From Vulcanimicrobiota bacterium (GTDB taxonomy: Bacteria; Vulcanimicrobiota; JAJTBE01): a stretch of 55,841 bases of DNA. Numbering within the stretch: position 1 is the stretch's first letter; every line of letters begins with the position of its first letter. The DNA is taken from contig JAIORV010000164.1 in assembly GCA_021107945.1 (NCBI GenBank), positions 1 through 55,841 on the forward strand, read 5' to 3'. A model generated the notes under the pieces. It did not search any database and was not told where the DNA came from. It saw only the letters and a program-made list of their open reading frames with translations. This document shows, in pieces, positions 23,071-54,287 of this stretch. Both the position numbers and the translations under genes were made by a program.

Positions 23071-23379
23071 GCTATTCACCGCAAAGACCACAGAGTTTAC
23101 AATTCCTGTAAGCAGTTTAGTTCGGTTAGTCGAGAGCAACTACTCTTGACATTACACTATGATATTAAATGATAATAGAACTCACATAAAAGTCATTCCG
23201 ATACCTCTGCCGACCTTTTTTCAGTATTTGTTTCGGAATCTAATAATAATGCCATACTGAAACGAGTCCGGGATGATTCATCCAATTTATTCCTTCTTAA
23301 AAAAAGTGTAACTCCTGTGATAATTTATCTACATTTTTCTTTGCGCTCTTTGCTTCTTTGCGGTTTATTTAACTATTCC
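23071..23379. repeat. Repeat-bearing gap inside the division cluster
   Basis: CACCGCAAAGACCACAGAG (23076-23094) at one end and the inverted TTTGCGCTCTTTGCTTCTTT (23340-23359, continuing GCGGTTT) at the other end flank about 240 bases without a recognisable gene. The two outer units are complementary in kind. Confidence 0.6.
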
Positions 23380-47504: not shown

Positions 47505-49145
47505 TTACTCCCGTCTGTCTATACAAATCATCGCTAATTTTGCATCGGTCTCAGTGTCAACGCCGTCATCCATATAAAGAAGCTTTGAAAGGAAATACGT
47601 GGCAAGATCCGGTTTTGCCCCGGCAAGCTCAAGCATTTGCTTTATATAGGGATGGCTCCTGTTTAAAACAAGTGTCTTGTTTTTTGAAAACAGTGAAAAC
47701 AGTGAGGTGAAAATATTGCCCCTCTTGTCCAGGTCGCTCACCGGCGCAAGCTCACCTGGGGTATTTTGCATTATATAAATACGATCGTTAATGCAGGAAT
47801 CCTCGTAATCAAAATCTGCAAATCGACATCCACCTGTTTTCGTTCCCATCTCGTGAATGACGGAATCAACGGATTTTAAAAGCTTTTTCTGAATTTCCGT
47901 TAATTCCTTGTTCTGAATTACTCCGGTTTTGAAATAAGCTACGGATGCCCGTGTTATCCTGTTCTTTTTCCAGAAGTGAGTTGACAGTCTTGTCAGGACT
48001 ATGAGAAGCTTGTCGCCGGCCTTGCACTTTATCACCCTTTTCCCGGATTTCATCAAAGCTCTTGTAGTATCATTTGATCTGATATCCCATAAAAATGCCT
48101 TTTGGGAAGACATTCCAAGAAGTTGATCAACACTGATGAATTTTCCCTCCACATCTCTTGCAATAGATCTCCCTCCACATTTATCAGGCATTTCTTCCCT
48201 GTATATCATATATCTGAGGGCATAACCCAGGCATTTCTTATAAAGCTTCGTCTCGGTCTTACTCTTTTTTAGCTCTTCCTCAATCGTCGCAAATAACTTT
48301 TCCGGAAGTTTTTTCGCCACAATATCAGTCAGAATATCCATCGCCTTGAAATAATTTTCATCCTCCCTGATATTGTCACGGGTGAGGGTATGCTCCAGGT
48401 ATTTTGATTTTAACTTGAACATCACCCGATTGAAAAATTTCCTTCTACCTTCCATCAGGGTCAATCCCTGGTTGTAGAATCCAAAAAAAGGCGACTCATC
48501 ATCACAATACCCGGCGACAATTTCCGCCGCTTTCGTTTTCTCATAAATCTTTACCGGTGAATCAACATCAAAGGGCTTGTTTATCCGCTCATCCTGAAAA
48601 TAAATCTCCGCCTCGGAATGCTTGCACCAGAACTCGACGGTCTCCCTGGATCTTTTAAGGAAATTATTGTAAAACTTCTTCGATCCGTTCTTCAGCATGG
48701 TAATTTTTGTGCCGTCAACGGGATAATCTCTTTTTATCCTTTCGAATTGCTTCTTCTCGTTAAAGATTATCCTCCAATCCTCACCGTCCCGGGAAGTATC
48801 CAGAATAACCGCCTGGGGCTTTATTGCAAATACCGAGACAAACCCGATCCCGAATTTGCCGATTTTCGTGAGATCGTTTTCCTTGCTTGATGAAAAGAGC
48901 CTTGTCAGCTCGTTGTCAATTATTTGCCTGTTCATCCCCTCGCCATAGTCATCCACATGAATCTTTACAACACCGTTCCTTCTTCCCTTCTTGCCGGGAG
49001 CAAATTTAAGATATACATCAATACGGTTTGTTCCGGCATCGAGAGAGTTCTGAATTAATTCCCTGTAAAAGCAATAGACATCGGAAAACTGCTCTATGAG
49101 GTTTTTCAGTGTATCTTCGACTGAATCACGAATTTTAGGGGACAT
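47505..49145 (-). CDS. HSP90-like (GHKL) ATP-binding protein
   Basis: 546 residues from the ATG at 49145 (RBS GAAGGTG; 16 in-frame codons upstream are unlikely to be used). N-terminal GHKL ATPase: N box FYRELIQNSLDAGTNRI, G1 DDYGEGMNRQII, G2 GKFGIGFVSVFAIKPQAVIL. The middle and C-terminal parts are helical and unlike HtpG (which is about 620-650 residues), so it is a distant HSP90-like protein with possible peptide- or protein-remodelling role. It precedes and nearly touches the maturation-protease-like gene. No signal peptide, so cytoplasmic. Confidence 0.83.
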   Translation of the reverse strand: MSPKIRDSVEDTLKNLIEQFSDVYCFYRELIQNSLDAGTNRIDVYLKFAPGKKGRRNGVVKIHVDDYGEGMNRQIIDNELTRLFSSSKENDLTKIGKFGIGFVSVFAIKPQAVILDTSRDGEDWRIIFNEKKQFERIKRDYPVDGTKITMLKNGSKKFYNNFLKRSRETVEFWCKHSEAEIYFQDERINKPFDVDSPVKIYEKTKAAEIVAGYCDDESPFFGFYNQGLTLMEGRRKFFNRVMFKLKSKYLEHTLTRDNIREDENYFKAMDILTDIVAKKLPEKLFATIEEELKKSKTETKLYKKCLGYALRYMIYREEMPDKCGGRSIARDVEGKFISVDQLLGMSSQKAFLWDIRSNDTTRALMKSGKRVIKCKAGDKLLIVLTRLSTHFWKKNRITRASVAYFKTGVIQNKELTEIQKKLLKSVDSVIHEMGTKTGGCRFADFDYEDSCINDRIYIMQNTPGELAPVSDLDKRGNIFTSLFSLFSKNKTLVLNRSHPYIKQMLELAGAKPDLATYFLSKLLYMDDGVDTETDAKLAMICIDRRE

Positions 49146-49247
49146 AATTACACCTTCAAATGTGAAATTGTAAGCGGGAAACGGAATCCCCATCTCTCTA
49201 CTCTCGAATCCCGTTTCTCTTACGTGTCTTCGTGGTAGATTCCAACC

Positions 49248-50120
49248 TTACTTCTTAACTAGCGCAAGTTTCTTTTTCAGAATATCATACAGGTGGGGAT
49301 TCAACAGAAAAGTTTTAATGTACCTCTCTTCAACATTCCCCGTGGGTGTTTGATGGATTTCAATGCTCGATGCAAGCTCTTGCTTTTTCATTTCAAACTC
49401 CTCGTCGCTCATTGTCCTGGCCTTATCCATCGCCGTTGCCACCTGTTTCAGTACTTTTTGCCTGTATTTCTCATCATGTATATAGAGCTTGATCTTCTCC
49501 TCAGCCCTCTCGAGTATAATCTCCTTGACGGAGGGATATGCAGCATCGGGAACCTTGCGGATCTTCTCCAGTCCCTTCTGGATTATTTCACCGCCGCCCG
49601 CCTGTCCTATGCGATCCGGATTGGCAATGCTTTTCACCGGAACAAGGCAGGGTTGATATTCCCGCAAGAGAACTTTTTGGTTTTCATTTAATACGGAAGC
49701 TACATCCTTGCTCAGTATATCCATTTCCTCATCGTATTCAACTTTCTTCTTTCGAATCTCCTCGCTAAGGGGATGATAACGTTTCTTCAAACCGTCGGAC
49801 AGATCGTTGTTCTTCATAAGTTGAGATTTCATTTCCTCCAGGATTTCATGAGCTTTACCAAACTTTTTCTGATACAGCGATTTTAACTTCGCATCTTCCT
49901 TCCTGACCTTCTCTGCAATGGGAAGAAGCTCTTTCATCTGCTTCTCCGACAGGTGAAGTCCGTTTAGCAGGTTTAGAGACTGAACATCCTTTACCATTTG
50001 GGCAATTTCCATCTCGGTAAATTCTTTTGCCGCCACCGTATGGCGTGGCACAACCATAAAGGTAATAAGTATTCCCAGGAGAAATCCCACGGCGCCCAAA
50101 ATCAGTGTTTTCTTATTCAT
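49248..50120 (-). CDS. Exported helical protein, paralogue B of a tandem pair
   Basis: 290 residues with a signal peptide or anchor (LILGAVGFLLGILITFMVV, ending TVAA). The long helical region begins SLNLLNGLHLSEKQMKELLP, resembling Spy/CpxP-like periplasmic helical hairpins. A conserved core has PCLVPVKSIANP followed by DRIGQAGGGE. The C-terminal third is again helical and ends FLLNPHLYDILKKKLA. All blocks are shared with the protein encoded 21 bases upstream. One Cys in the mature part (in QPCLVP). Family not recognised. Confidence 0.75.
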   Translation of the reverse strand: MNKKTLILGAVGFLLGILITFMVVPRHTVAAKEFTEMEIAQMVKDVQSLNLLNGLHLSEKQMKELLPIAEKVRKEDAKLKSLYQKKFGKAHEILEEMKSQLMKNNDLSDGLKKRYHPLSEEIRKKKVEYDEEMDILSKDVASVLNENQKVLLREYQPCLVPVKSIANPDRIGQAGGGEIIQKGLEKIRKVPDAAYPSVKEIILERAEEKIKLYIHDEKYRQKVLKQVATAMDKARTMSDEEFEMKKQELASSIEIHQTPTGNVEERYIKTFLLNPHLYDILKKKLALVKK

Positions 50121-50141
50121 TTACAATTCTCCTCTCACGAA

Positions 50142-51068
50142 TTATTTGGATCCGGCCTTCTTTATTTTATACTCAAGGATGGGGATAATATCGGGATTCA
50201 GGAGAAACCTGCCGATATACTTTTCCTCCTTGCTTTTTTTTCTTTTTCTTTTTTTAGATTTTTTGGACATTGTCTTCGCCTTTTCCTCCACCGTTTCAAG
50301 CCCCTTGAACAACTTGTCCTTCTTCATCTCGTAATCTTCATCGGTCATTAATCTTACCTTGTCCATTGCTTCGCCCAGTTTCTTAACAAATGACGCCCTT
50401 TTCTGATCGTCCTTGATTTTCTTTTTAAGTTTTTCATCAGTCCTGGCAAGAATCTTTTCCCTGACTTTAGAATACCTGTCATCGGGAATTTTTCGAATCT
50501 TTTCCATCAATTTGCCTAATTTCTCTCCTCCATCGGCCTGTCCTATACGCTCCGGATTCGAAATGCTTCTTATGGGAATAAGGCAGGGCTTATATTCTCC
50601 CACCAGGACAATCTGGTTCTCGTTTAAGATTCCCTTTGCCTTACTAGCAAGGCTCTTCATTTCCGTTTCATATGCCTTGATTTCATTAATAATCTCTTTC
50701 TTGCTTGCCTGGAATTTTTTCTTGAGATCTTTTGCAACATCGTTGCTGTCTAATAGCTGTTCTTTCATTTCTTTAAGATTTTTGTTGAATTCCGGCTCCT
50801 GTTTCTCTATAGATTTTTTCAGATTTTCCCTTGCCTTCTTCGACTCCTTGATAACAGGGAGCAATTTCTCCATCTGTTCCCTGGATAAATTAAGACTGTT
50901 TAGCAAGTTGAGTGATTGAATCTGCGATCGCAACAATCCTCCCTCTTCAGACTTGCTCTTTGGCATTCCCATAGCCGGTAATGTGGATACACATAAAAAG
51001 GCAAGTAAAAGGAATAAAAGTAGAAAAACTTGGAACGGAACCCATTTTTTTATAGTTTTGTTGCCCAT
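50142..51068 (-). CDS. Exported helical protein, paralogue A of a tandem pair
   Basis: 308 residues from the ATG at 51068 (AAGGAGG at ideal spacing). Signal peptide VFLLLFLLLAFLCVSTLPAM, then a helical region SLNLLNSLNLSREQMEKLLP, the conserved PCLIPIRSISNP then ERIGQADGGE, and an RFLLNPDIIPILEYKI end. Before the end is a very basic insert (KSKKRKRKKSKEE) absent from its neighbour. Same direction and 21 bases before paralogue B, so one operon. Periplasmic location expected; role unknown. Confidence 0.75.
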   Translation of the reverse strand: MGNKTIKKWVPFQVFLLLFLLLAFLCVSTLPAMGMPKSKSEEGGLLRSQIQSLNLLNSLNLSREQMEKLLPVIKESKKARENLKKSIEKQEPEFNKNLKEMKEQLLDSNDVAKDLKKKFQASKKEIINEIKAYETEMKSLASKAKGILNENQIVLVGEYKPCLIPIRSISNPERIGQADGGEKLGKLMEKIRKIPDDRYSKVREKILARTDEKLKKKIKDDQKRASFVKKLGEAMDKVRLMTDEDYEMKKDKLFKGLETVEEKAKTMSKKSKKRKRKKSKEEKYIGRFLLNPDIIPILEYKIKKAGSK

Positions 51069-51245
51069 TTCATCCTCCTTATTATATAACATTTTTATTG
51101 ATACTTTAATATTTTCGACATAATAAAATTAGACTCCTTGAAACTGCAAAAGGTTTCTGATTTAATGAAGGAAAGTTAGTGTTATGATATAGAAAATTGG
51201 CTATTCGCTATAATGTGAAGGTAAATATTTGGAGGATTAAAATTA

Positions 51246-51333
51246 ACCGCAAAGAAGCAAAGAACGCAAAGGGTTTATCGGGGTTGGGAAACCCCTCCCA
51301 CAAAAATTCTTTGTGGTCTTTGCGGTGAATAGA
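51246..51333. repeat. Inverted CGCAAAG-class repeat
   Basis: ACCGCAAAGAAGCAAAGAAC (51247-51266, continuing GCAAAGGG) faces TTCTTTGTGGTCTTTGCGGT (51308-51327, continuing GAATAG) about 40 bases away: same architecture as the CGCAGAG units but with CAAAG instead of CAGAG. It lies just upstream of the TolC-ankyrin gene. Confidence 0.8.
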
Positions 51334-51380: not shown

Positions 51381-53327
51381 ATGATGAGAATTCGTATTTA
51401 TATAATAATTTTATTTATTACAGGCATCTGTATCGGTATCTCATCCGCCGATCCTATTTCATTATCTGATGCTATCGACATGGCCTTCAAGAAAAACCTT
51501 AACCACAAGTATAGAAAAATAGACTATAAAATCAGCAAAATTGAGGAGAAAGAGGCAAGAGCCCGGCTCTATCCAAAAATTACCCTTGACTCCTCTTATA
51601 AAAATGACGAGGATTATTCTAAAAACCTCCTGGATTATTCCGTCGGACTCGAGCAGCCTGTATATTGGGGAGGAAAGCTGAGAAATGACCTGCGGATGAA
51701 TCGGGCAGAGAAAGAATCTCAATTTTTCAGATTGAGGGAGAGCGAAAACGATCTCGAGAAACAGGTAATTCAAGCATATATGCGGATAACAAGGTCAGAA
51801 AGAATCCTGAACATAAGACTCGAGTCAATAAAACAGGCAAAAAGCCAACTGGAGTTCGTGGAGAAAGAGTTCAAGGCGGGGCGAAGAGGCAATGAGGCAG
51901 TACTCAGGTGGCAGGTGCTGGTTAGTAACTATAAGGAGGATGCTATCAACCTGAATGTGGATCTCGAAATTAACATGGTTGACCTTAACAGATTGCTGGA
52001 GAGAGACCTTTCATCGAAGGTAAGCCTTGTTTATTATGGCAGTGAAAGTTTTGATATTGATTATAAGATTTACAGGAATAATAGAAAAAGATATTCGCTT
52101 GACAAAGCCGCGGATGCTATTTTTCAATTTACTCTTCAATACAGTCCCGCCATAAGACGCAGGGATATGGATATTAAAGTTTCAGAATACAAGCTCAAAT
52201 CCACAAGCTCATCGGACTTCCCCAGGTTTGATCTATTCTACGATTATTGTTGGTCATCGGGCAACACAGTTGATTCAAAGAATAATCATTCCGTGGGTAT
52301 GAGATTGAAATATTACATTTACAACAGGCCTGACAAGGAAGCTATCAGGATTCAAAAAGAAAAGCTCAAACAGGTCAGGATCCTGAAGTTTATATTAATA
52401 AGGGATGTTCAATCAGAAATAAGAAGGCTCTATTCAAGACAGATATCCTCCATGGCGCAGGTACATTTAAAGCGAAAACAGGCTCTCAAGGCAAAAGATT
52501 ACCTTGATGAGATAATAGAAAAATACCGAAAGGGAAAAGCAACTGACGTTGGCTTGATTGACGCATACAATTCTTACTACAACAACCAATTCTCGGAGGT
52601 CAGGGCTCTTTACAGCTATTATATAGAAAGACAAAATTTGAGATCACTCATGGGATATTCCAATTATCAGCAGACGCCTTCCCTGACACAATTTATTATA
52701 AGGCAAAAAGGTGGGGACGATATTCCGGACACTTTCAGACCTATAAGCAAAATAAACCGCGCAATTGACAGGGGAGACTCCCGGGTCGTCATGGAACTTC
52801 TCGCAAATAATCCCGAGATTGCAAGGAAAAAAGCCAAAGGCGGTTGGACTCCGCTTCACTGCGCGGCATTCAGGGGAAGAACAAAACTTGTCAAGCTCCT
52901 GCTCTCAAAAGGTGTAAATATAAACGCCAGAGTGGATATGGGCATGACTCCCCTTTATCTGGCGATCAACAACGGACAGACTGATGTTGTCAAATTCTTA
53001 CTTTCAAAAGGAGCAGACCTCAACATACCCGGAGGCAGATCCGAGCGAACCCCGCTTCAGAGAGCCGCCGGAAAAGGCAGGAAAGAGATTGTTCTGATTC
53101 TGTTGAAGCACGGGGCGGATGTTAACTCCAGGTCAAAGATAGGCTGGACACCGCTCCACAGCGCATCCGAGGCAGGTAATAAAGATGTGATAGAAATATT
53201 ATTAAAACATGGCGCAGATGTCAATATAAAGACACAATCGGGCAATACGGCGATTCAACTTGCAGAAACCGCCGGAAGAAAAGAGATTGTAGAATTACTC
53301 AGGAAATATGGAGCCAAAGAAAAATAA
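51381..53327 (+). CDS. TolC-like outer membrane efflux protein fused to ankyrin repeats
   Basis: 648 residues. Signal peptide (IIILFITGICIGIS, cleavage near SSA, residue 23). Residues 25-425 form the TolC/OEP fold: SLSDAIDMAFKKNLNHKYRK at the start, VYWGGKLRNDLRMN, long coiled helices with KSQLEFVEKEFKAGRRGNEA, and the second half repeating the pattern (LDEIIEKYRKGKATDVGLID). After a linker, residues 455-645 are six ankyrin units such as GWTPLHCAAFRGRTKLVKLL, GMTPLYLAINNGQTDVVKFL and GWTPLHSASEAGNKDVIEIL. The two parts are in one uninterrupted frame. No inner-membrane pump or adaptor gene is nearby. The ankyrin part should be periplasmic (inference). Confidence 0.9.
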   Translation: MMRIRIYIIILFITGICIGISSADPISLSDAIDMAFKKNLNHKYRKIDYKISKIEEKEARARLYPKITLDSSYKNDEDYSKNLLDYSVGLEQPVYWGGKLRNDLRMNRAEKESQFFRLRESENDLEKQVIQAYMRITRSERILNIRLESIKQAKSQLEFVEKEFKAGRRGNEAVLRWQVLVSNYKEDAINLNVDLEINMVDLNRLLERDLSSKVSLVYYGSESFDIDYKIYRNNRKRYSLDKAADAIFQFTLQYSPAIRRRDMDIKVSEYKLKSTSSSDFPRFDLFYDYCWSSGNTVDSKNNHSVGMRLKYYIYNRPDKEAIRIQKEKLKQVRILKFILIRDVQSEIRRLYSRQISSMAQVHLKRKQALKAKDYLDEIIEKYRKGKATDVGLIDAYNSYYNNQFSEVRALYSYYIERQNLRSLMGYSNYQQTPSLTQFIIRQKGGDDIPDTFRPISKINRAIDRGDSRVVMELLANNPEIARKKAKGGWTPLHCAAFRGRTKLVKLLLSKGVNINARVDMGMTPLYLAINNGQTDVVKFLLSKGADLNIPGGRSERTPLQRAAGKGRKEIVLILLKHGADVNSRSKIGWTPLHSASEAGNKDVIEILLKHGADVNIKTQSGNTAIQLAETAGRKEIVELLRKYGAKEK

Positions 53328-53831: not shown

Positions 53832-54287
53832 TTACCATGTCGTTGAATATTCCTGTCTCTCATCTTTCTCGTCAAAATCCAAAGTTACATTTTCGCCGAC
53901 ATTAATTATCTCAACTATATTACCTCTTGTTATAAGGAATGCGACTACCTCGACGGTAAGTTCACCGCCTCCGCCGGCGCCTCCTCCGCCACCGCCGCCA
54001 CCGCCGCCGCCGCCGCCGCCGCCATCGCTCTCACGACTCTGGTCGTAATCCTGGTATTGGGAGTAGTTGCTTTCCTGCGGCCTATAGACCTCCTGTTGTT
54101 GGGGAGAGGTATCGGATTCTCCTCCTCCGCCTCCTCCACCAAATCCGAGGCTAACTTTCAATACAGGTCTGATTGTTGATTCACCGGATTGAATCGGATC
54201 GCCAATCACCGTTTTGGAGTTGGTCATATCCTTGAATGCGCCGGTTATCTCCCTGATGATATTTTCTCCCATCGGTCTGATTTCCAT
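53832..54287 (-). CDS. GerW/YtfJ-like protein with poly-glycine insert
   Basis: 151 residues. The segments NSKTVIGDPIQSGESTIRPV and LKVSLGFGGGGGGG match the GerW (YtfJ) pattern GDP..(x)..TIIPVSKVSFGF, and GELTVEVVAFLITRGNIVEI matches its second half (VEPVAFLV..G.v.ii). Between them is a Gln/Tyr/Ser-rich insert and a 20-residue tract of 15 Gly, Ala, 4 Gly. GerW proteins are spore-associated in Firmicutes; homologues occur in non-spore-formers with unknown role. It is the last gene of a three-gene operon with two membrane proteins. Confidence 0.82.
   Translation of the reverse strand: MEIRPMGENIIREITGAFKDMTNSKTVIGDPIQSGESTIRPVLKVSLGFGGGGGGGESDTSPQQQEVYRPQESNYSQYQDYDQSRESDGGGGGGGGGGGGGGGAGGGGELTVEVVAFLITRGNIVEIINVGENVTLDFDEKDERQEYSTTW
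53964..54023. repeat. GCC trinucleotide microsatellite
   Basis: 60 bases consisting of GCC and near-GCC triplets on the plus strand (purest part 53989-54023), encoding 15 Gly-Ala-4 Gly on the minus strand. Such a tract can change length by slippage in steps of one residue without a frameshift. Confidence 0.9.

Follow-up and report, generated by a model that had tools for sequence, protein, structure and literature searches.

TolC-type channels are regarded as exit ducts, engaged and opened by adaptors and pumps. In TolC, D153, Y362, and R367 keep the entrance closed and D371 and D374 act as a second gate; the gate residues vary among known OMFs, such as VceC and OprM (PMC8277102). YbjP, a separate DUF3828 lipoprotein added in trans, is bound at the equatorial region of E. 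coli TolC, which is proposed to touch peptidoglycan, and is dispensable for efflux (PMC13082787). Bd3460 of Bdellovibrio bacteriovorus has six ankyrin repeats and binds enzymes in the periplasm; it is a free protein without a channel domain, and its gene adjoins that of an endopeptidase target (PMC4686830). Ankyrin repeats and TolC also belong to one pathway in Orientia, where ankyrin proteins are reported to be the cargo of type I secretion systems (PMC4315096).

Here, we describe a protein in which a TolC-type channel domain (outer membrane efflux protein, OEP) and an ankyrin domain are joined in one polypeptide. It is encoded at positions 51,381 to 53,327 of the forward strand of a 55,841-nucleotide stretch of DNA from a Vulcanimicrobiota bacterium (GCA_021107945.1, contig JAIORV010000164.1), hereafter the window. 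As with YbjP, an extra periplasmic protein module is placed at a TolC channel, but the module here consists of ankyrin repeats, and a Pfam scan found no DUF3828 in the protein. As with Bd3460, the six-repeat ankyrin module is exported, but no endopeptidase gene was found adjacent. Compared with the Orientia proteins, the ankyrin repeats are part of the channel behind a Sec signal rather than cargo. OEP and ankyrin domains are each well known; consistent with the initial annotation, which knew of no such architecture, we found no description of a natural OEP-ankyrin protein in the open-licence literature searched.

Results

A single open reading frame encodes a TolC-type channel domain and six ankyrin repeats

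The gene is a single open frame of 648 codons from ATG to stop with zero internal stops, and its product consists of a signal peptide, two OEP halves, a short linker, and six ankyrin repeats, in that order. The initial annotation had placed at these coordinates an OEP domain behind a signal peptide that continues in frame into six ankyrin repeats, and our Pfam and heuristic signal peptide analyses of the intact frame bear out both the position and the description. The features are as follows:

51381..51449, + strand: Sec type I signal peptide, residues 1-23, predicted cleavage after SSA (heuristic)
51450..52676, + strand: TolC/OMF channel domain, residues 24-432 (PF02321 twice, AlphaFold2 topology, Foldseek, and profile match to TolC chains)
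51879..51932, + strand: first periplasmic tip, H3/H4, residues 167-184, remodelled (alignment with plain OEPs)
52524..52586, + strand: second periplasmic tip, H7/H8, residues 382-402 (alignment with plain OEPs and TolC profile match)
52677..52745, + strand: linker, residues 433-455 (alignment and AlphaFold2 model)
52746..53324, + strand: six ankyrin repeats, residues 456-648 (Pfam, model, DARPin matches, and conservation test)

The N-terminus, MMRIRIYIIILFITGICIGISSA followed by DP after the predicted cleavage point, resembles a Sec type I signal peptide according to a simple heuristic, with RIR preceding a hydrophobic core (IIILFITGI) and a small-x-small cleavage site. The Pfam family OEP (PF02321) matched the protein twice, scoring 147.4 bits (cut-off 22), with its best stretch at residues 28-206 and the second half at window positions 52125-52655. 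Ank_2 matched near the C-terminus with 171 bits, and the Pfam scan returned no family other than OEP and Ank. Read directly, the six repeats span about residues 458-485, 486-518, 519-552, 553-585, 586-618, and 619-645. The protein scored 97.2 bits with the NCBIfam model of type I secretion TolC proteins (TIGR01844), which is under the curated cut-off of 225.15.

The predicted fold is that of a TolC-type channel with a C-terminal arm

An AlphaFold2 model of the monomer, computed from a six-row alignment, had a mean pLDDT of 83 and a pTM of 0.60 and placed the elements in the order seen in TolC. The channel domain comprises the two OEP halves, with four predicted beta-strands (66-76, 81-94, 282-293, and 301-310), two long periplasmic tunnel helices of 65-67 residues (99-165 and 319-383), and two return helices (171-206 and 389-424). 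After the return helices, the linker starts with a roughly conserved TP/SP motif and is weakly predicted at residues 444-451 (pLDDT <50), and ankyrin helices follow at 453-642. Residues 1-22 also had low pLDDT. Foldseek identified TolC, ST50, and SilC as the nearest solved folds for the channel (TMt 0.65-0.78 to TolC, ST50, SilC, and TOprJ1), while CusC and OprM were also matched. For the arm, designed ankyrin proteins (DARPins) matched at 1.3-1.6 A rmsd.

With its export signal (heuristic call), two PF02321 halves, four strands, and long tunnel helices, together with the Y and G at the H7/H8 tip and a D374-equivalent, the protein shares its main features with the TolC/OMF superfamily (PF02321; TolC, ST50, OprM, CusC, and SilC). 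It differs in its C-terminal six-repeat ankyrin domain, in the lack of an adjacent adaptor gene, and in changed residues at the positions equivalent to D153, A157, and A164. In TolC, the C-terminus is on the periplasmic side, roughly level with the equator of the channel. From this topology and the signal peptide, we infer that the ankyrin arm is periplasmic and lies near the equatorial belt, and the placement in the periplasm made by the initial annotation is thus supported as a prediction. The channel is probably a trimer, which in this superfamily forms a 12-strand barrel, and would hence carry three arms.

The fusion is real and defines one branch of channels in the phylum

The window gene lies on contig C30 of its genome (G000), and a second contig of the same genome, C2, encodes a paralogue with identical architecture (699 amino acids, 36% identity end to end over both domains). 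A search first among 38 relatives and then in all 149 genomes of the phylum identified four further full-length OEP-ankyrin proteins in three other genomes, two in G017 and one each in G020 and G007. The family thus comprises six proteins in 4 of 149 genomes, spread over four genera and three families, and the search E-values exclude chance as an explanation for these relatives. A chimera produced by an assembly error or frameshift has a negligible probability, since the reading frame is unbroken and the same architecture occurs on a second contig of the genome and in three other assemblies. We therefore reject an assembly join or frameshift at the junction, as well as the possibility that the fusion is confined to one contig, both of which the initial annotation had raised as grounds for doubt; the OEP-ankyrin fusion is real. 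Beyond the phylum, a search of 398 Pseudomonadota genomes gave no full-length match, plasmids yielded no fusion (best coverage 62%, channel part alone), and neither did viral contigs; named genomes gave just two weak matches, both to plain OEPs.

A tree of 31 channel domains from the phylum placed all six OEP-ankyrin proteins on one side of a branch with 100/100 support, while 25/25 plain OEPs fell outside it. On this tree, we reject independent recent fusions. A second tree, of the ankyrin parts together with further ankyrin proteins of G000, grouped five of the six arms with a support of 96, and an inner branch uniting G007, G020, and the C3 copy of G017 matched the channel tree. In the alignment, the five grouped relatives also have in common a lengthened junction between the third and fourth repeats. 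The sixth ankyrin part, from the C54 copy of G017, formed a long unplaced branch and may have been replaced or have diverged. Since the six channel domains form one clade and five of six ankyrin domains group, the fusion is ancestral, and since the two G017 copies sit in different sub-branches of the channel tree, the family duplicated or spread early. Pairwise identity across the family is 19-34% for the channel part and 23-43% for the ankyrin part; despite this deep divergence, all six channel domains can be aligned from end to end.

OEP-ankyrin genes stand apart from adaptor genes

The window gene stands alone, with a divergent gene pair upstream and unrelated genes downstream. When adaptors were sought in G000 with one model, PF16576, which other adaptor types may escape, we found four (contigs C19, C41, C42, and C59), each adjoining a plain OEP. 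The plain OEPs of this genome, four in number, all have an adaptor gene next to them; the OEP-ankyrin genes at C30 and C2 have none. No adaptor gene was seen at the other OEP-ankyrin loci (the G020 contig is just 3.6 kb), nor was any gene neighbour common to the loci found. The observation that no adaptor or pump gene is nearby, made at the outset for the window, therefore extends to the other informative loci. E. coli tolC is likewise not in an operon with its main pump, so ordinary pump use stays compatible with the orphan status of these genes.

Several other features of the surroundings were recorded. The divergent pair upstream (49248-51092, - strand) encodes two adjacent paralogous exported helical proteins with 41% identity and no Pfam match, for which a structure search returned no solved fold; about a dozen members of this family occur across four of the phylum's genomes (G000, G017, G002, and G003). 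We do not claim a functional link to this pair, as the family is absent from G007 and G020 and is not beside other OEP-ankyrin genes. In G007 (L047 7118-12809), a run of six same-strand genes starts with an ABC-2 exporter ATPase and permease and ends with the OEP-ankyrin gene, and a link to this exporter is not claimed either, the arrangement having been seen in G007 alone. An 88-bp palindromic repeat (51243-51330, + strand) lies about 50 bp upstream of the start codon, with a further match in the window at 23339-23365 (- strand). It has 48 matches in the genome, one other at full length with 97% identity, folds strongly as single-stranded DNA (z = -4.8), and looks like a dispersed REP/MITE-like element. 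The window also encodes a Spore_YtfJ (GerW-like) protein that contains a tract of some 16 glycines (53832-54287, - strand) and a 562-amino-acid HSP90/sacsin-type ATPase domain protein (47505-49193, - strand) whose gene adjoins that of a hydrogenase maturation protease.

The tunnel entrance is altered in the OEP-ankyrin family

We aligned the six OEP-ankyrin proteins with the 25 plain OEPs of the phylum and compared the periplasmic tips. The acid equivalent to D153 is present in 24/25 plain OEPs and was lost in five of the six OEP-ankyrin proteins (1/6 retains it). The A157-equivalent is small in 24/25 plain OEPs and W, I, or L in 6/6 family members, while the A164-equivalent is small in 25/25 and Y, L, or I in 6/6, respectively. 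In the first tip of the window protein, A173 replaces the D153 acid of TolC, and W177 and Y184 replace the small residues. In its second tip, Y382, G385, and D394 (TolC Y362, G365, and D374) are kept, with G391 at the position of the D371-equivalent acid; the window protein thus lacks the canonical tip of the phylum's plain OEPs, which combines a D153-type acid, small H4 residues, and E/D at D371. Across the family, the Y362 and G365 positions are each kept in 4/6 members, and the D374 position is acidic in 6/6. The alignment also revealed a first-tip deletion in G007 and G020 and a second-tip deletion in G020.

Divergence in the family extends beyond the tip to the channel helices in general, so the altered tip is part of a wider change and no isolated switch. 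By alignment, the entrance is relaxed or altered, which does not by itself make a new gate. Since known OMFs also vary at these positions, the change weakens the case for adaptor use while leaving it compatible with the data.

The ankyrin arm carries a candidate contact surface

To assess conservation in the arm, we compared the five grouped relatives, whose ankyrin parts are 35-43% alike, with 171 background repeats drawn from ankyrin proteins elsewhere in G000. With kinship left uncorrected, the five relatives were invariant at three non-scaffold positions: W489 and F497, in the second repeat, and S585. The positions of W489 and F497 are highly variable in the background (about 10% W and 11% F), and both residues are exposed. 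This pattern points to a possible conserved contact surface close to where the arm meets the channel, at which either a partner or the wall of the channel itself may be bound.

The repertoire of exported ankyrin proteins in this genome is large. We sampled 30 other ankyrin ORFs, of which about 23 have a signal peptide or lipobox (heuristic), and ankyrin modules seem to be in wide use in the envelope of G000. At L078, L081, L083, L085, and L087 (contigs C25, C9, C69, C15, and C2, respectively), genes for exported ankyrin proteins and for ankyrin lipoproteins are arranged in tandem clusters. Four of the 30, as read from sequence, start with a zinc-ribbon/kinase-like part and continue into long ankyrin arrays; three of the four lie in tandem (L080 2780-11744 on C9; L089 3211-5997 on C1).

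Discussion

Our preferred reading, which we hold tentatively and at somewhat below even chances, is that these proteins form an outer-membrane channel whose periplasmic ankyrin arms bind a client or partner and which depends less on standard adaptors. A TolC/OMF-type channel, probably a trimer, would sit in the outer membrane, and its three C-terminal arms would hang into the periplasm near the equatorial belt. There, each arm would bind a specific periplasmic protein, either a client for export or a partner that opens the channel, and would thereby take over part of the recognition that adaptors give ordinary OMFs. Binding of this kind is what we infer from the arm; the invariance of W489 and F497 fits a binding surface, because these positions vary in the 171 background repeats. 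The orphan genes and the clade-wide changes at the tip also count in favour of this reading, and Bd3460 provides a precedent for a six-repeat ankyrin protein that binds periplasmic enzymes (PMC4686830). On the other hand, no client or common gene neighbour was found at the loci, the two residues could instead pack against the channel's own wall, the tip change belongs to the general divergence of the helices, and E. coli tolC is also outside its main pump operon. The initial annotation proposed that the arm could gate the channel, recruit a pump, or inhibit a toxin; the evidence singles out none of these, the remodelled tip speaks somewhat against simple recruitment of a standard adaptor or pump, and next to the window gene we found no gene for a toxin or cell-wall hydrolase. 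A stronger version, in which three arms select Sec-exported clients and feed them into, or open, a remodelled TolC-type tunnel as a new, adaptor-free class of export channel, seems to us unlikely.

It is also conceivable, if somewhat unlikely, that the protein is an ordinary tripartite exit duct with adaptors and pumps encoded elsewhere and an arm that serves only to stabilise or orient the channel or to link it to a protein of the envelope. The kept TolC fold and the Y362-, G365-, and D374-equivalents retained in most members are consistent with this, as are an RND-type pump at C9 of G000 with no OEP found beside it and the precedent of YbjP, a protein at the equatorial region of TolC that efflux does not need. 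However, every adaptor found in G000 has its own adjoining OEP, the D153-equivalent acid and small tip residues have been lost, with tip deletions in G007 and G020, and the type I TolC score of 97 is below the cut-off of 225.

Two further explanations were weighed. The channel part could be mainly an outer-membrane anchor that displays ankyrin modules in the periplasm, one of several anchoring ways in a genome where most sampled ankyrin ORFs appear to be exported or lipidated, and its lower conservation relative to the ankyrin part agrees with this; we nevertheless consider it improbable, as a lipid anchor is far cheaper and already in use in G000, the model keeps all four strands and the two long tunnel helices intact, and the channel domains of all six proteins still align at full length. 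Quite improbable, in our estimation, is a role in self-protection, in which a cell-wall enzyme or toxin destined for export would be held inactive by the arm up to its exit through the channel. Bd3460, which is likewise exported and has six ankyrin repeats, inhibits periplasmic endopeptidases (PMC4686830) and offers a model for such a role, but bd3460 adjoins a target gene, while no endopeptidase or toxin gene was found beside the window gene or its relatives, and ankyrin folds are so generic that the likeness says little.

As a conserved branch with a probable periplasmic binding arm, orphan genes, and an altered gate, the OEP-ankyrin family would be a natural test of whether a channel can choose its cargo or partner alone. 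If the adaptor-free reading were true, channel and cargo receptor would be one polypeptide. The family would also be a case of ankyrin repeats working in the bacterial envelope rather than being sent into a host.
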